Below are positions 9,503-58,845 of a DNA stretch of 64,000 nt, piece by piece; the stretch's first letter is position 1, and each line of letters starts with the position of its first letter. Under the pieces are notes generated by a model. The model made no database searches. It saw nothing but the letters and a program-made list of their open reading frames with translations, and had not been told where the DNA came from. The DNA lies in NCBI GenBank assembly GCA_028689665.1, contig JAQVCR010000003.1:124001-188000 (forward strand), given 5' to 3'. The stretch comes from Muribaculaceae bacterium (GTDB lineage: Bacteria; Bacteroidota; Bacteroidia; Bacteroidales; Muribaculaceae). Position numbers and translations under genes: made by a program.

Positions 9503-10246
9503 ATGGCAAAAGAGATAATAAAAATAGATAGCCTTCGACGTAATTTCACAGTTGGAAGTGAAGTGGTACATGCCTTGCGTAATATTTCATTTACAATCAA
9601 TGAAGGCGAATTTGTTACAATAATGGGAACTTCCGGCTCCGGGAAATCGACATTATTAAACACTCTTGGTTGTCTTGATACTCCGACTTCAGGCGATTAT
9701 TATCTTGATGGAATATCAGTAAAGAGTATGGGCAATAATGAGCGAGCAAGAATGCGCAACCGAAAGATTGGATTTATTTTCCAAAGTTATAATTTGTTGC
9801 CTAAAACAACGGCAATAGAAAATGTAGAATTGCCACTATTATATAATAGCGATGTGAGTGCAAAAGAGAGAGAACAGAAAGCCAAAGCCGCACTTGAGGC
9901 AGTAGAATTGGGCGATCGCTTATATCATAAATCAAATCAAATGTCGGGTGGGCAACAGCAGCGTGTTGCAATAGCGCGAGCATTAGTTAATGATCCGGTA
10001 ATAATATTAGCCGATGAGGCAACCGGTAATCTTGACACTCGAACAGCATTTAGTATTTTGATATTACTACAAAATCTCTATAAGAAAGGGAAGACAATAA
10101 TATTTGTAACGCATAATCCGGATTTAGCTAAATATAGTAGTAGAAATATTGTATTGCGAGATGGTAAAATAATTTCAGACGAAAAAAATTCCCAGATAAG
10201 TAGTGCCGAAGATACTTATAAATCGTTACCAATAATTAATGATTAG
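9503..10246 (+). CDS. ABC transporter ATP-binding protein (MacB/LolD type)
   Basis: Walker [10 protein letters not shown], signature [15 protein letters not shown], Walker [14 protein letters not shown]. Confidence 0.95.
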
Positions 10247-10252
10247 AATTAA

Positions 10253-11473
10253 ATGAATATAATTAATTTATTAAAGATAGCATTAAAAGCATTATCCAAT
10301 AATAAGATGCGTTGTTTTCTGACGATGCTGGGAATTATTATAGGAGTAGCATCTGTAATTTCGATGCTGGCAATAGGTCAAGGCTCCAAGCAAAGTATAA
10401 AATCGTCAATTGCCGAGATGGGTTCAAATATGATAATGATAATGCCCGGTACACAAGAGCGAGGCGGTGTAAGACAGAGTGGAGAGTCGCAGCAGACATT
10501 AAAGCCAATTGATTTTAATACTATAAAGGAAAATACCACAAAAATTCAAGCTCTATCACCTACTGTTAATAGTAGTGGTCAATTTATTAATGGTGCAAAT
10601 AATTATCCGTCAACCGTATTTGGCGTAAATCAAGATTATCTTGAGATACGCAAATTGACAGTTGAAGATGGTGCAATGTTCAGCGATCGTGATATTTTGA
10701 CAGCCACCAAAGTGTGCATTGTGGGAAAGACTGTAACAGATAATTTATTTCCCGATGGAGAAAGCCCGATAGGGAAGATTATAAGATTTAATAAAATACC
10801 TTTTACTATTGTAGGTACATTGAAATCTAAGGGATATAATAGTATGGGAAAAGACCAGGACGATGTGGTATTGGCTCCCTATACAACCGTAATGAAAAGG
10901 ATATTGGCTATCGATTATATTCAAGGGATTTACGCATCTGCAATAACCGAAGATATGACCGATGATGCAATAACAGAAATTACTCAATTATTGCGCAAGA
11001 ATCATAAACTCAAAGATGAAGCAGAAGATGATTTTACGATACGCTCGCAGAAAGAATTAAGCTCAATGATGAGCTCAACAAGTGATATGATGACAATGTT
11101 GTTAGCTTGTATTGCCGGAATTTCGTTGCTTGTTGGAGGTATTGGTATTATGAATATCATGTATGTATCTGTAACTGAGCGAACTAGAGAGATAGGCTTG
11201 AGAATGAGTATCGGAGCAAGAGGGAAAGATATATTATCACAATTTTTAATTGAAGCAGTGATAATAAGTGTAACAGGCGGAATAATTGGAGTAATTTTAG
11301 GTGCCGGTTCAGCATTTATTATTAAATTTGCTTTGAATTGGCCGGTAATAATAGAAATGTATTCAGTTTTGTTATCATTTGCAGTATGTACAGTTACCGG
11401 AATATTCTTTGGTTGGTATCCTGCAAAGAAAGCGTCGAAATTAGACCCAATAGAAGCAATAAGATATGAATAG
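10253..11473 (+). CDS. MacB-like ABC transporter permease (FtsX family)
   Basis: NNKMRCFLTMLGIIIGVASVI start, MacB periplasmic core, VTERTREIGLRMSIGARGKDILSQFLIEA. Confidence 0.93.
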   Translation: MNIINLLKIALKALSNNKMRCFLTMLGIIIGVASVISMLAIGQGSKQSIKSSIAEMGSNMIMIMPGTQERGGVRQSGESQQTLKPIDFNTIKENTTKIQALSPTVNSSGQFINGANNYPSTVFGVNQDYLEIRKLTVEDGAMFSDRDILTATKVCIVGKTVTDNLFPDGESPIGKIIRFNKIPFTIVGTLKSKGYNSMGKDQDDVVLAPYTTVMKRILAIDYIQGIYASAITEDMTDDAITEITQLLRKNHKLKDEAEDDFTIRSQKELSSMMSSTSDMMTMLLACIAGISLLVGGIGIMNIMYVSVTERTREIGLRMSIGARGKDILSQFLIEAVIISVTGGIIGVILGAGSAFIIKFALNWPVIIEMYSVLLSFAVCTVTGIFFGWYPAKKASKLDPIEAIRYE

Positions 11474-48181: not shown

Positions 48182-49546
48182 TTAAATTAATTTCTCAAGT
48201 CCTTTTGTATTTTCTTCTACTTGATCTTCTGTTACCTCATAGTTAGTCAAGTCGCCTGCTAAATATCTATCGTATGAAGCCATGTCTATCAGTCCGTGTC
48301 CCGAAAGATTAAATAAAATGACCTTCGATTCTCCTGCTTCTTTTGCTTTTTTAGCTTCACGAATTGCCGATGCAATGGCGTGAGAAGATTCGGGCGCAGG
48401 AATGATTCCTTCAGTACGTGCAAATATCGTTGCTGCTTCAAAAGTCTCTAGTTGAGGTATATCGACAGCTTCCATCTGCTTATCTTGTTTTAATTGGCTT
48501 ACAACTGATCCTGCTCCGTGGTAACGAAGCCCTCCGGCGTGAATATTTGCAGGTGCAAAGTTATGCCCTAGTGTGTACATTGGAATTAACGGGGTGTAGC
48601 CGGCTTCATCGCCAAAGTCGTATTGGAATACTCCGCGAGTCAATTTAGGGCAAGATGCCGGTTCGGCTGCGATAAATCGAGTATTACGTTCGCCAGTAAA
48701 GTTGTGGCGCATAAATGGGAATGATATTCCTGAGAAATTACTTCCGCCACCGAAACAACCTATTATTACATCGGGGTATTCTCCAGCCATTTCCATTTGC
48801 TTTTCTGCTTCAAGTCCTATTACAGTCTGATGAAGAGCGACGTGGTTTAATACTGACCCTAGTGTATATTTACAATTTGGAGTATTCATTGCTAATTCCA
48901 CAGCTTCACTGATTGCTGTGCCTAGCGAACCTTGATAATTGGGATGCTCGGTTATAATCTTTCGTCCGGCTTTAGTCGACATACTTGGTGATGCAATCAC
49001 TTCCGCTCCATAGGTTTGCATTATTGAACGGCGATAAGGCTTTTGATTATATGAAATCTTTACCATATATACTGCCAACTCAATTCCGAAATGTTTTGCC
49101 GCCATAGATAGAGCAGCTCCCCATTGTCCGGCACCTGTTTCTGTCGTAATGTTTGTTATTCCTTCTTTTTTGCAATAATATGCTTGAGGAATAGCCGAAT
49201 TAAGTTTGTGAGAGCCTACCGGGCTTACACTTTCGTTCTTAAAATATATATGTGCCGGTGTATCTAAATATTTTTCTAATCCTCTAGCTCTTACAAGTGG
49301 GGTGGGACGCCATATCTTATACATTTCTCTTACTTCATCAGGTATTTCTATCCATGAATCTTTATCATTAACTTCCTGGCGAGATGCTTCTTGTGAAAAT
49401 AGAGGGAAGAAATCCTCTGCTTTCATTGGCTCTTTTGTTGCAGGATTTAGGAATGGTCTTGGCTTATTTTTCATCTCAGCCATAATGTTATACCATGCAG
49501 TTGGTATGTCTTTTTCTTGTAAAAGAAATTTCTTCGATTCGTCCAT
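48182..49546 (-). CDS. TrpB2-type tryptophan synthase beta-like protein
   Basis: WRPTPLVRARGLEKYLDTPAHIYFKNESVSPVGSHKLNSAIPQAYY with N-terminal extension and GAGQWGAALSMAAKHF; TrpB2 subgroup, no trpA or other trp gene nearby. Confidence 0.9.
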   Translation of the reverse strand: MDESKKFLLQEKDIPTAWYNIMAEMKNKPRPFLNPATKEPMKAEDFFPLFSQEASRQEVNDKDSWIEIPDEVREMYKIWRPTPLVRARGLEKYLDTPAHIYFKNESVSPVGSHKLNSAIPQAYYCKKEGITNITTETGAGQWGAALSMAAKHFGIELAVYMVKISYNQKPYRRSIMQTYGAEVIASPSMSTKAGRKIITEHPNYQGSLGTAISEAVELAMNTPNCKYTLGSVLNHVALHQTVIGLEAEKQMEMAGEYPDVIIGCFGGGSNFSGISFPFMRHNFTGERNTRFIAAEPASCPKLTRGVFQYDFGDEAGYTPLIPMYTLGHNFAPANIHAGGLRYHGAGSVVSQLKQDKQMEAVDIPQLETFEAATIFARTEGIIPAPESSHAIASAIREAKKAKEAGESKVILFNLSGHGLIDMASYDRYLAGDLTNYEVTEDQVEENTKGLEKLI

Positions 49547-49650: not shown

Positions 49651-50832
49651 CTATCGTTTATGCTTGCAATTATGTATAATTATAACAATTTGCATCGCAA
49701 TTAAAATACAAAATGCTGCATAAATAATTATTATGCCAATAATTAATGATGATATTGGCATCGATATATGATAATAGAAAAGATTAAGCCAAGAATTAAT
49801 TGTGTAGAACGAAATAGTAAGAGCCGGGATTAATGCGATACTTATTAATTTAGTATACTTTGAACTTAAACTTATAAATAATTGCATATTTTCGGCACCA
49901 TATATTTTGCGTATATTTATTTCATATATTATGGATTGTCGATCTGTTAATACTATTCCGATGATTCCGGAAAATGCAATAAATATAGATATTAATGATA
50001 ATAAAATAATAAGTTGTATGTTTTGAAATTCTTGACAATAAGTGATAGGAATTTCATCATAATAATTTCTTATATTATGATGAAATTCAGGTTGTATGGA
50101 ATTAATTGTTTTGATAATACTTTCTTTTACGCATTCTTGATCGAAGTCTGAGCTTATTCTTATATTAATATATGTCATCGTATAATTATCGGTGATGTAT
50201 ATTGCTAACGGCTCAATGGGTTCTCTAAGACTTTTATATTTAAAATCTTTTATATATCCTGCAATTTGAATGATATTGTCGGTAGAAAAGGGTATTATAG
50301 CACCAATTGTGTCGTTGGGGTATTGCTTATGACCAATTTCGTTTATATAATAGTAATTGCTAATCTTATTATTACATTTTTTTATACTTTTAGTCTTTTC
50401 AAATTGATATACATCAAAGCAGCCTTTAGTCATAACTAACATATTATATGATCCAGTATTTCCTATACTCCAACTGGGTATATTGTCAGTCCGTAGTTCT
50501 TTTTAATGTTACAGTTTATGGGCGTTTTTACGGTAATGTAGAATATAGGTATTGAAATTAGTATTCCTATTAATAAAGACAAAAACACTATTAAAGAGAA
50601 GATACCAGGATTATAAATTATTGAAATTTGTAGTGGAGAAATATATGATAAAATAAAATTGGAACAAATGCTTGTACTTAGAGCTATCCCCATGATACAT
50701 GAAATAAAATTTACAATTATATATTCAGCACTTACCTCAAAGTATAATCTTTTTTTTTGATATTCCGATAAGCCTTTTTATATTGATTTCTCTTAATCTG
50801 AGAGAATTAGTTGATAGTGCATATAGAATGTA
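49651..50832 (-). pseudogene. Degenerate, 5'-truncated FtsX/MacB-like ABC permease
   Basis: Fragments in three frames: 49651-50442, 50463-50693 and a further segment to about 50830 reading ILYALSTNSLRLREINIKRLIGISKKKII. Frameshifts lie near 50463-50480 and at a 9-nt A/T run (about 50751-50759). N-terminal half missing. Confidence 0.75.
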
Positions 50833-50988
50833 ATTAAACCTGAAGAAGAAGGAACAATTGAAAGTACGGAACGAAAAATGATTGTTACTTCGTTAGAAAA
50901 ATATGGAAGTAATCTTTCTCTTGTAGCTTTAAAATTAGGAATTTCAAGACAGACACTTTATAATAAGATGAAAAGATATGAAATATAA
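50827..50988 (+). pseudogene. C-terminal Fis-HTH remnant of a sigma-54-type (NtrC-family) response regulator
   Basis: Frame ending at TAA 50986-50988 reads NVIKPEEEGTIESTERKMIVTSLEKYGSNLSLVALKLGISRQTLYNKMKRYEI; no receiver or AAA+ domain upstream, only stops and antisense permease sequence. Confidence 0.75.
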
Positions 50989-52282
50989 ACTACATTATAG
51001 ATTAATTAATTATTTATTGCTTCTTTCTTTTGTCTCGGTGTTACTGGGAATAGCAATTATAAATAAGTCAATATTAATTATATTATTTACCACGGTAGCT
51101 GTTATTTTATTTGTTTATGGCAGCTATGGCTGTTATAGTAAAGTAGAAAAGAATATTAGTAGATTAGCCGAAGCTGTAAAAAATAGAGATTTCACCTTTA
51201 TTATTAATAATAGTTCTACTATTCAAGGAATATCTAATTCTTTAAACGAAATTATAGATGTTTTAAAGACCGAGAAATTCAATCTTGAAGAGAAAGAAAA
51301 ATATTATGGATATATTATTAATAATATTCCGATGAGTATTATTGTTTTAACTGAAAAGTTTGAGATAATTTCTTGTAATGAAACCACATTATCGATGTTT
51401 AACTTAGAAATATTATCTAATTTGTCGCAATTATCGAGATATAATGGGTTAGATGAAATTTTGCGCAATATTGACCATTCTGAGAGCCGGTATTTATTTG
51501 TGAAAATAAACGAATGTGAGATGAATTTGTTAGTCAGGGCAAATAATGTGAATATAAGTAATGTGATATATAAAGTTATTACTATTGGTGATATTCGACA
51601 AGAGATTAATCGAAATGAGTTGGATTCATGGATTAAGTTGACGCGTGTCTTGACACATGAGATAATGAACGGTATTGCGCCTATTAATTTTATGTGTAAT
51701 GCCATAATTAGTGAAAATAAAGATATTTCCCCTGCTGTATTAAGTGGGATTAATGTAATATCAAATATTTCTAATCGTATGATGAAGATGGTCGATGCTT
51801 ATCGTCAATTTAGTTTATTACCAACACCTAATCCTAAGCCGATTTATGTGGCTAAGATAATAAGCGATATAAGATTATTATTATCAGAAGAGTTAAGCGG
51901 AGTAAAAGTAAATGTTGATGTTTCACCCGACGATTTATTAATTTATGCTGATGAGTCTTTAATCAGGCAAGTAATTATAAATATACTTAAGAATGCAATA
52001 CAAAGTATGAACTTTAATAGTCTAACGACGCCGGAAATTAAGATTCAATCATTTATTGATTCGAAAGAGCGCATTTATATTAATATGTTTAATAATGGCG
52101 AAGAAATAACAGATGATGTTGAAGATAATATGTTTGTTCCTTTTTTTACTACAAAAAACGAGGGTAGCGGAATTGGTCTTTCTGTGTCAAGGAAGATTAT
52201 GATGCTCTCCGATGGCTCTCTAGAATATGAGCATCGAGCAGGTGAGAAATACACAACGTGCTTTAAACTAATATTTAATTAA
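50978..52282 (+). CDS. NtrB-like membrane sensor histidine kinase (apparently orphaned)
   Basis: 434 aa; two N-terminal TMs, PAS-like region, WIKLTRVLTHEIMNGIAPI H-box, EGSGIGLSVSRKIMMLSDGSLEY. Confidence 0.88.
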   Translation: MKYKLHYRLINYLLLLSFVSVLLGIAIINKSILIILFTTVAVILFVYGSYGCYSKVEKNISRLAEAVKNRDFTFIINNSSTIQGISNSLNEIIDVLKTEKFNLEEKEKYYGYIINNIPMSIIVLTEKFEIISCNETTLSMFNLEILSNLSQLSRYNGLDEILRNIDHSESRYLFVKINECEMNLLVRANNVNISNVIYKVITIGDIRQEINRNELDSWIKLTRVLTHEIMNGIAPINFMCNAIISENKDISPAVLSGINVISNISNRMMKMVDAYRQFSLLPTPNPKPIYVAKIISDIRLLLSEELSGVKVNVDVSPDDLLIYADESLIRQVIINILKNAIQSMNFNSLTTPEIKIQSFIDSKERIYINMFNNGEEITDDVEDNMFVPFFTTKNEGSGIGLSVSRKIMMLSDGSLEYEHRAGEKYTTCFKLIFN

Positions 52283-52344: not shown

Positions 52345-53985
<1,641 letters not shown>

Positions 53986-54627: not shown

Positions 54628-57600
54628 ATGAAAAGACGATTACTGTATTTAGCCTTTGCGCTAATTACTGTTTTAGGATTTTCCAACCATGCTAGCGCAT
54701 TGAATGCTTATGCATACGACTTGGCTGCTAGTTATGGAGAGGGAACTTCTAAAATAACTGTGAATTACGCCCTAAATGATGTGGCGGAAAGTGCAGCTAT
54801 CACTTTCTTCACGAGTGATAGCCAAAAACACAATGTTGACCTTACCGGAGATCTTCTTACGAAAGGTTCACATTCAATAGAAGTTGATGCCTCAGCTTTT
54901 GCTGCAGGAAATGCATCGTGGTCAATTTCTGTAACAAGTGCTAAGGTAGATGTTCCTACTGCACAGACTCCAGCTTATCAATTCTATCACCCACAAGGTG
55001 TCGCAGTTGATAACAACTTTGAAAGCCCTTATTTCGGACGTATCTTGGTTACTGAATGTATGACAGTTACAAGTGCTACATACCAATCAGGTAACGCAGC
55101 CGATGGTAAAGGTATTTATGCATTCGACCCACAATTAAATCCAATACCAAATAAAACTGGTACATTCGCATTTAAAGGTGGGCTTACTTATGAAGAGTCA
55201 CTTTCTACTACAGGAACTGCTTATGACCCTCGTAAAATAAGAATCGCTGAAGATGGTCGTATCTTCTTGACACGTCAAGCAGGTCTTGCCAGCTCTTTAT
55301 GGGAAGTAAACGCTGCCGATCTTAATGCAGATTTTACTGAGATCTTTAAAGGTACTGTGGATCCGGAAACTTATGAGCTTAAAACTACTGATGGCGCTAT
55401 TATCTCTAGAGCCAATGTTGGATTTGACGTTAAGGGTGCAGGTGAAAACCTTCAATTACTTTTACTTCAAACTAACAAATCAGGTATTGGTTACTCTTAT
55501 TCAGGATTTAGCGTAGATGAGTATAATCTAGGTACAGCTACTTCTTGGGACAAGATTCCTACAAAAAATATTGATTGGCTTACCGGTCAATGGACTATCC
55601 AAGCAAACAATACTAATGTAGTTTATGATAATGAAGGTGGTATATGGTATGTTCAATACCGTGCAACTCCAAGCGACGAGCAACCATCTATTCTTCACAT
55701 CAATGCAAAAGGTGAAGAAGATTATCGTAACATAGAAATTGTAGCCGGTGGTGCAGGTATTAGATTCAATAAAGATTTTACTTTATTGGCTGTTGCTAAT
55801 GCTAAAAAGCAAGTTGGTGTATATGCTGTAGGTAAAGACGAAACAGGTAAACCAACATTAACTCTTAAATTTGAATTTGCTACAACTATTGGAACAAACT
55901 GTAACGATATAGCATGGGATATCGCTGATAACCTATATATAGTAGGTAATAGCGGCGAATGGTTTAAAACATTTGCTCTACCTCGCGATGTAGCTACTGC
56001 TGTAACTCAAGCTAGCTCTAAACAAGGTCTTGTAATCCCTGAGCCTAAACCAGTATCTCCATATACTTTGACTGAGGTTAAAACAATTAAAGAAGGTCTA
56101 CCAGCAGTAGCAGAAGCACGTCAAGCAGCATTTGCTAATGGTAAACTATATATCCAAAACAAAGCAGATAAGCAAGTAGAAGTTTGGACAGCCGAAGGAA
56201 AAACAGCCGAAACATTTGCATCTGGCGAAGGAACAAACATCGCTAGTGATGAAGCCGGAAACATAATTGTACGTATAGGTGCATTCCCTAACAAGTTTGC
56301 TAATGGTACAGCCGAATTACGTATTCTTCCAGCTGATGGTTCAGCTGCTGTTGATGTAACATTAGACGGTCTACCAGAAGGTCGTTGCGACTTCTTTGGT
56401 AAAGTACGTGGAAATGTTCTTGATGCAACAACCGGTGGTACATTATACATAGCTCCAACAGGACTAGTAGGTGTAGTAGTTATTCCTATTATTGCAGGTA
56501 AACAAGATGTAGACAATACATTTACAATGCCTTTGACAGCTGTAACAGCTGCTGATGGTGGAACAGTAGTTTATCCTTATGGAGAAACCGACCTAATTTA
56601 CAACAGAAGAACTGCAGGTAATTCAATTCGTAAGATTGTAGTTGAAGGTGAGACAGGTGATGATTCTTATATCTTTAACACCCCTGAGCACTATGCAGCT
56701 AATGGTTGTTCAGTATTTACAATGGGTGGCGTAGAATATATGTTATATCCTACATCAACAAGTTCAGCTTACAAAGACGGATTTGCAATTGCTCTTGCAA
56801 CTAATGCAGAAGAGAATCCAATCTTAGTAAAACATGATGAGACTTTCGCTGCTGCTTCTAATTCTTTCCAATCAAACTGGTTATTTGCAGAAGTTATTTC
56901 AGACACTCAAGCAAATATTTACCAATATTGTCCGGGTGGAATGATTGCTAAATATGTATTTACTGCTCCTGCTCCAGTTGTAGTTGAAAAACCTCTTTAT
57001 ATTATTGGTCAAGTTGCTGGTAATACTGAATGGGCAGCTAACGTAGGTGCAAAAATGACAGAAACTGAAACTGCAGGTATTTACACAATCACTACCACAA
57101 TTAATGGTGCATTTGGTTTTGCTACAAAACTTGCTGCCGGTAATAATGCAGCAGATTGGGATGTCCTAAATGCTAATCGTTATGGTTGCGCAGTTGATGG
57201 CGAATTGCTTAAAAATAAAGTATCTGCTAAATTAGAAAAAGCAGTAGGTGCATTTAATATCAAAGCTGGTGAATATCTTGTTACTGTTGATATGAATGCA
57301 ATGACTATCCTTTGTGAATCAACAGCACCGGAAGTTCCTGCAGTATATACTTTAGTTGAATTACGCAAAATGACAGAAGGCCTTCCAGTAGTAGCAGATG
57401 CACGTCAAGCTACATTAGCTAATGGCAAACTTTATATCCAGAACAAAGCAGATAAGAAGATTGAAGTTTGGTCACATAATGGTAAACTAGAAGAATCTTA
57501 TGAATCTGGCGAAGGAACAAATATCACAAGCGACGAAGCCGGAAATATAATTGTACGTATCGGTGCATTCCCTAACAAGTTTGCTAATGGTACAGCAGAA

Positions 57601-58845
57601 TTACGTATTATCCCTGCTGATGGTACAACTCCGGTTGACGTAACATTAGAAGGTCTTCCAGAAGGTCGTTGCGACTTCTTTGGTAAAGTACGTGGAAATG
57701 TTCTTGATGCAACAACAGGTGGTAAATTATACATAGCACCAACCGGACTTGTAGGTGTAGTAGTTGTTCCTATTATTGCAGGTAAACAAGATGTAGACAA
57801 TACATTTACAATGCCTTTGACAAATGTAACAGCTGCTGACGGTGGAACAGTAGTTTATCCTTATGGCGAAAATGATTTAATTTACAACAGAAGAACAGTT
57901 GGTAATTCAATTCGTAAGATTGTAGTTGATGGAGAGACAGGTGATGATTCTTATATCTTTAACACTCCTGAGCATAATGCATCAAACGGTTCTGTTATAT
58001 TCACAATGGGTGGTGTAGAATATATCCTTTATCCTACAACTGCTAGCGCATCTTACAAAGACGGATTTGCAATTGCTCTTGCAACTAATGCAGAAGAGAA
58101 TCCTATCTTAGTAAAACATGAAGAGACCTTAACTGCAGCTTCTAACTCATTCCAATCAAACTGGTTATTTGCACAAGTTGTTTCTGACACTCGCGCACTT
58201 ATTTATCAATATTGTCCTGGTGGATTTATTGCAGCATATGAGTTCAATACAGTAGATAATGTATATCCAACAGAAATATATGCTATTGGTAATTTGAATT
58301 CTACTGCAGGTGATTGGAAGACTAATGATGCTTCTAATGCTCTTAAACCTGTTGAAGGTGTTAACTTAGGCGAATATTCAGCTCTTATCACAGTAGCTAA
58401 AGCTAGTGATAATGCAAATGGATTTGTTGCTTTAAGTACTGTTTTAGGTGCAACAGATGCTGATTGGACAACATTCAATACAGGTCGTATTGGTGCTACT
58501 AGTCAAAATCAATTATTAAAAGAAGGTGTTGTAGCTCCATTCGTATTAGGTAATGATTTTTCATTTATGTTGGTTCCTGATACTTATACTCTAAGTATTG
58601 ATTACGCTTTCGGTGAAATCCTTGCTAAGAAGTATGTAGGTGTTTCTAAACCAAGTGTTACCGCAACAGCTAAGGTTATTGGTGGCGTAGGTGAAATCAA
58701 CGTAATTGGTGAAAATATCCAATCTATCGAAGTTTATACTATTGGTGGCGCATTGATTAGCACAAACGAAGCTAATATTCAATGTGTAGCTGGTATATAT
58801 CTAGTAAGAGTTGATGGACAAGTTACTAAGGTTATTGTTAGATAA
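54628..58845 (+). CDS. Large secreted repeat protein with T9SS type A-like C-terminal sorting domain
   Basis: Signal peptide MKRRLLYLAFALITVLGFSNHASA; NHL/propeller-like segments (HPQGVAVDNNFESPYFGRILVTE); duplicated 300-aa module; C-terminus INVIGENIQSIEVYTIGGALIS...GIYLVRVDGQVTKVIVR. Confidence 0.85.
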   Translation: MKRRLLYLAFALITVLGFSNHASALNAYAYDLAASYGEGTSKITVNYALNDVAESAAITFFTSDSQKHNVDLTGDLLTKGSHSIEVDASAFAAGNASWSISVTSAKVDVPTAQTPAYQFYHPQGVAVDNNFESPYFGRILVTECMTVTSATYQSGNAADGKGIYAFDPQLNPIPNKTGTFAFKGGLTYEESLSTTGTAYDPRKIRIAEDGRIFLTRQAGLASSLWEVNAADLNADFTEIFKGTVDPETYELKTTDGAIISRANVGFDVKGAGENLQLLLLQTNKSGIGYSYSGFSVDEYNLGTATSWDKIPTKNIDWLTGQWTIQANNTNVVYDNEGGIWYVQYRATPSDEQPSILHINAKGEEDYRNIEIVAGGAGIRFNKDFTLLAVANAKKQVGVYAVGKDETGKPTLTLKFEFATTIGTNCNDIAWDIADNLYIVGNSGEWFKTFALPRDVATAVTQASSKQGLVIPEPKPVSPYTLTEVKTIKEGLPAVAEARQAAFANGKLYIQNKADKQVEVWTAEGKTAETFASGEGTNIASDEAGNIIVRIGAFPNKFANGTAELRILPADGSAAVDVTLDGLPEGRCDFFGKVRGNVLDATTGGTLYIAPTGLVGVVVIPIIAGKQDVDNTFTMPLTAVTAADGGTVVYPYGETDLIYNRRTAGNSIRKIVVEGETGDDSYIFNTPEHYAANGCSVFTMGGVEYMLYPTSTSSAYKDGFAIALATNAEENPILVKHDETFAAASNSFQSNWLFAEVISDTQANIYQYCPGGMIAKYVFTAPAPVVVEKPLYIIGQVAGNTEWAANVGAKMTETETAGIYTITTTINGAFGFATKLAAGNNAADWDVLNANRYGCAVDGELLKNKVSAKLEKAVGAFNIKAGEYLVTVDMNAMTILCESTAPEVPAVYTLVELRKMTEGLPVVADARQATLANGKLYIQNKADKKIEVWSHNGKLEESYESGEGTNITSDEAGNIIVRIGAFPNKFANGTAELRIIPADGTTPVDVTLEGLPEGRCDFFGKVRGNVLDATTGGKLYIAPTGLVGVVVVPIIAGKQDVDNTFTMPLTNVTAADGGTVVYPYGENDLIYNRRTVGNSIRKIVVDGETGDDSYIFNTPEHNASNGSVIFTMGGVEYILYPTTASASYKDGFAIALATNAEENPILVKHEETLTAASNSFQSNWLFAQVVSDTRALIYQYCPGGFIAAYEFNTVDNVYPTEIYAIGNLNSTAGDWKTNDASNALKPVEGVNLGEYSALITVAKASDNANGFVALSTVLGATDADWTTFNTGRIGATSQNQLLKEGVVAPFVLGNDFSFMLVPDTYTLSIDYAFGEILAKKYVGVSKPSVTATAKVIGGVGEINVIGENIQSIEVYTIGGALISTNEANIQCVAGIYLVRVDGQVTKVIVR
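56062..56961 (+). repeat. Intragenic 900-bp module, copy 1
   Basis: Encodes YTLTEVKTIKEGLPAVAEARQ...YQYCPGGMIAKYVF; aligned with copy 2 by eye without indels. Confidence 0.92.
57346..58245 (+). repeat. Intragenic 900-bp module, copy 2
   Basis: Encodes YTLVELRKMTEGLPVVADARQ...YQYCPGGFIAAYEF; shares long identical DNA tracts with copy 1, e.g. ggtcgttgcgacttctttggtaaagtacgtggaaatgttcttgatgcaacaac. Confidence 0.92.

Follow-up and report, generated by a model that had tools for sequence, protein, structure and literature searches.

The window, that is, the whole 64,000-nucleotide stretch of Muribaculaceae DNA analysed here (G000:C12:124001-188000), belongs to a draft genome of 2.30 Mb in 54 contigs, the completeness of which is 86.8%. 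The locus in question is bounded by an intact trpB-like gene on one side and an intact groEL gene on the other (Table 1). Between them lie an intact gene for an NtrB-type histidine kinase (HK) and the remnants of two genes in opposite orientations: a permease of the MacB/FtsX type, of which the C-terminal part is left (49651-50838 in total), and the tail of an NtrC-family response regulator. Residue numbers in the table refer to the genome G077, which is described below.

Table 1. Features between the trpB-like gene and groEL in window coordinates.
Feature	Positions	Strand	Remarks
trpB-like gene	48182-49546	-	Intact, 454 aa; PALP (PF00291, E 3.6e-45); synteny anchor
Permease remnant, C-terminal piece	49651-50478	-	Periplasmic part and second FtsX domain; 275-codon open frame
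Second scar	50466-50480		Frame change and ~85-95 permease residues gone (G077 ~420 to 505-515)
Permease remnant, middle piece	50466-50744	-	Most of first FtsX domain; matches G077 permease
Permease remnant, first piece	50740-50838	-	Begins FNYIL, residue 303 of G077 permease; ungapped score 51, z 7.0
Third frame break	50752-50760		Nine-T run (T9), read directly from the sequence
Main junction (proposed deletion)	50839-50853		Permease homology stops at 50838, regulator homology begins at 50854
Regulator remnant	~50840-50986 (homology 50854-50986)	+	Fis/HTH_8 tail and stop codon only, NtrC family; HTH_8 match
Histidine kinase	50978-52282	+	NtrB type, intact, 434 aa; overlaps regulator stop
groEL	52345-53982	-	Intact, convergent neighbour

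The HK, which does not appear in the first-pass annotation of this DNA, starts inside the last codons of the regulator. It contains a HATPase_c domain (PF02518, E 1e-14), and its H (HEIMN), N and G boxes are conserved in the alignment. The best named matches of the trpB-like gene are in Heminiphilus faecis (87%) and a Paramuribaculum draft (86%). Further along the window, a 1405-aa ORF (54628-58845) adjoins groES and contains a long internal near-duplicate, with two similar halves around FGKVRGNVLDATTGG.

The permease and regulator remnants

Six-frame translation confirmed that an FtsX permease can be read on the minus strand in three open frames, as the first-pass annotation had described. 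The two FtsX domains are recognisable in register in different frames, with scores of 21.7 and 20.8 bits against a Pfam cut-off of 25.5. The first piece, FNYILYALSTNSLRLREINIKRLIGISKKKIIL, corresponds to the beginning of FtsX domain one in the relatives' permeases: its 33 residues (FNYILYAL...) align with the G077 permease without a gap (the z value in Table 1 is relative to shuffles), and the same register is obtained against the other permeases of the compared set. The middle piece matches residues 341-419 of the G077 permease (26% over 84 aa, E 4e-6 in a pairwise comparison), and the C-terminal piece matches the same protein with 27% identity over 199 aa (E 7e-23, tblastn). The N-terminal MacB_PCD domain was not found at the locus; its only two matches in the genome (C12:134316 and C3:8209) are in other permease genes. 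The C-terminus of the remnant (49651-49690, ...IHNCKHKR) does not have the NPVxxLKxE-like ending of its relatives.

The frame changes within the permease had been interpreted as extra frameshifts, one of them in a 9-nt homopolymer. One break does lie at the run of nine T. The other one, at ~50466-50480, is a deletion rather than a point frameshift, because it coincides with the absence of ~85-95 residues, a range set by the alignment of an ambiguous middle part: between residues 419 and 577 of the G077 permease, the window contains ~72 residues versus 157 in G077.

When each piece is read in its own frame, the 401 codons of the permease contain no in-frame stop. Since 54.5 nonsense changes are expected per unit of neutral divergence, the divergence since inactivation is bounded at ~0.055 substitutions per site, which is our own estimate under a simple transition-biased model. 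The absence of nonsense codons suggests that the decay is recent. The same bound for the HK is 0.057, so its open frame alone is no proof of function.

On the plus strand, only the Fis-like helix-turn-helix tail of the regulator is left, again as first described. The tail matches HTH_8 (PF02954, E 3.5e-12), the Fis-type C-terminus of this family. In G077, where the regulator has 446 aa, its counterpart is residues 403-444, with 71% identity over 42 aa (E 5e-12). The matches of both remnants are far beyond chance. The REC receiver domain is absent from the locus, where the full G077 regulator used as a query matches only through its own residues 400-445. Likewise, the Sigma54_activat AAA+ domain was not found at the locus, and its matches in the same genome are in other genes. 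There is no ATG in frame ahead of the tail in the six-frame translation; the first in-frame ATG is inside the HTH.

Both genes are truncated on the N-terminal side exactly where they meet. As permease homology extends up to 50838 and regulator homology begins at 50854, we place the junction between these positions, and the 3' parts of the two genes are joined there head-on. The regulator had previously been read from ~50827, beginning with NVIK, but the conserved FNYIL of the permease is encoded by the complement of 50824-50838. NVIK is therefore the permease translated on the wrong strand, and the regulator actually starts after 50838.

An intact counterpart and the extent of the loss

The comparison with relatives that carry an intact regulator-permease pair identified a compact array in G077 (G077:C15:57000-76500, L136), which belongs to another genus of the family. 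The array has the same order and orientations as the window and consists of the kinase and the regulator and, divergently from these, a DUF2807 gene, an outer-membrane barrel gene (OMP_b-brl_3), an ABC ATPase gene, the gene for a 786-aa MacB/FtsX permease, and trpB. The trpB-like genes of the two loci are 85% identical, and the distance from the trpB-like ORF to the end of the permease is ~105 bp in the window versus ~140 bp in G077. Among the 397 family genomes searched, G077 has the HK closest to that of the window, although the identity is only 37%, and its regulator gives the best match to the tail among those compared. G077 thus provides the intact syntenic counterpart expected for a pseudogene locus formed by deletion.

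In comparison with this array, the window is without the REC and AAA+ domains of the regulator, the N-terminus of the permease, and the genes for the ATPase, the barrel and DUF2807. On the G077 map, the missing part amounts to ~6.5 kb (6.48 kb). It runs from residue 402 of the regulator back to its start, across the divergent promoter region and three whole genes, and through the first 302 residues of the permease. Both the ancestral gene content and this size are approximate, because G077 is from another genus and its HK is only 37% identical. The content is approximate also because the family searches with both the HK and the trpB-like gene found the two on one contig in G077, G153, G059, and G113, and in the latter three trpB and the regulator are farther apart or have other genes between them. 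Direct adjacency of trpB and the permease was seen in one relative only, G077, and a scan of 80 trpB loci found a permease array beside trpB in none. The HK is absent from the two other genomes that share G077's genus. When contigs of GTDB genomes were scanned for the kinase, no relative was found and none from the window's genus, and the family searches did not yield another genome of that genus either. A simple scan of the intact divergent regions for sigma-54 (-24/-12) motifs gave nothing convincing, and a literature search on such regulator-permease arrays in Bacteroides gave nothing on point. Two side observations were made on trpB-like genes in other genomes: G070 contains two adjacent copies that score alike against the query and are both 84% identical to it (G070:C23:49905-52709), which are either a tandem or an assembly duplicate, and in G010 there is one in-frame TGA within the gene match (G010:C29:28827-30173).

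In 17 of 18 relatives, defined by a kinase match at E <= 1e-60, a full-length regulator lies directly upstream of the HK.

We found the missing parts nowhere else in the assembly, which is 86.8% complete: there is no regulator 5' part, no matching MacB_PCD domain, and no orthologous barrel, the barrel query giving one weak partial match only. Nor does the assembly contain a second copy of the junction region. The genome still has rpoN and two further genes for sigma-54 activators, so the wider sigma-54 machinery has not been lost. In addition, a second, intact-looking MacB-type set is located in the window at ~9554-11449, where an ABC ATPase 49% identical to that of G077 lies beside the best MacB_PCD/FtsX permease of the genome.

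Origin of the scar

The first-pass annotation proposed one deletion across a divergent promoter region that removed the 5' halves of two adjoining genes. The intact G077 array supports a deletion across the divergent region well, but the loss is larger than two 5' halves. Moreover, the two genes were not necessarily adjacent before the loss, because three whole genes lie between them in G077. We consider it highly probable that the locus is the relic of an ABC transporter operon under two-component control, in which the loss of several kilobases joined the 3' ends of the regulator and the permease. In the ancestor, the genes for the kinase and the regulator very probably pointed away from an array whose last member, beside the trpB-like gene, was a MacB/FtsX permease. 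The loss would have removed the receiver and AAA+ domains of the regulator, the N-terminal 302 residues of the permease, and everything in between, including the divergent promoters, and would have joined the two 3' ends head-on. The internal deletion near 50480 and the frame break at the T run may have occurred before or after this loss. The locus is thus an ordinary and fairly recent gene-loss scar in a decaying two-component/ABC operon, and it is more complex than first read.

A single large deletion is likely as the simplest history. The same junction could have been produced by several smaller deletions of the array and the regulator that met at this point. Small deletions do happen at this locus, as at least one more is present in the permease, and three whole genes are gone by the G077 map. 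Nevertheless, several events would have to end exactly where both remnants can still be read, and the lack of nonsense codons noted above leaves little time for them; we therefore regard stepwise loss as unlikely, though it is the strongest of the alternatives.

Misassembly is a more doubtful explanation. The draft is known from the assembly alone and is incomplete, and two separate regions might have been wrongly joined at the junction while intact genes exist in the cell. However, no repeat of the junction occurs elsewhere in the assembly, both sides correspond to a single syntenic locus of G077 with the correct order and orientation, the permease bears another scar at some distance from the junction, and the missing parts are on no other contig. 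Hence, we consider this improbable. It is equally improbable that the remnants are functional, either because the HK signals to another regulator or because a small protein is made from the HTH tail or from the permease fragment. The motifs of the HK are intact, rpoN and the other sigma-54 activators are present, and the C-terminal piece of the permease has a long open frame, but intact frames are also expected under recent loss, the promoter region of the pair is deleted, and no in-frame start codon precedes the HTH tail. Truncated genes joined head-on would also result from a translocation or from an inversion that broke each gene once, but we rejected relocation of the 5' halves as very improbable because these are not found in the 86.8%-complete assembly, where the remaining sigma-54 activator and MacB_PCD matches all belong to other genes.

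Under the preferred reading, loss of several kilobases from the operon, the HK has neither its cognate regulator nor the promoter that preceded the pair, and the circuit has most likely ceased to work. The intact HK should accordingly not be labelled in annotation as part of a working two-component system. Deletion-type pseudogenes of bacteria provide the general setting (PMC2916853, PMC3899985): as in the window, genes are inactivated by deletions and frame breaks, and the neighbours are intact. By that comparison the mechanism is not unusual, and the window differs in that two divergent genes and the content between them were hit together. Taken alone, the locus has little significance beyond being a clear example of a sensor-controlled transporter operon vanishing from a lineage of gut Bacteroidales; its scar has datable pieces and an intact relative for comparison.

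A similar scar in another genus

The one exception among the 18 relatives is G118:C33 (L062), from another genus of the family. As in the window, a permease without its N-terminal part is joined head-on to an HK of the same clade, and the regulator is missing. In contrast to the window, the regulator is wholly gone, and the join is near the first codons of the HK, at ~880-895 of a 4.6-kb contig in a draft that is 80% complete. This is a different event, because its breakpoints differ from those of the window. It could be an assembly fault, and it is possibly a case of parallel loss. That selection independently favoured loss of the regulator and the array in the two genera, sparing an HK that was rewired to another regulator, seems improbable. 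The G118 case nonetheless hints at repeated loss of the operon, which is countable across the family.
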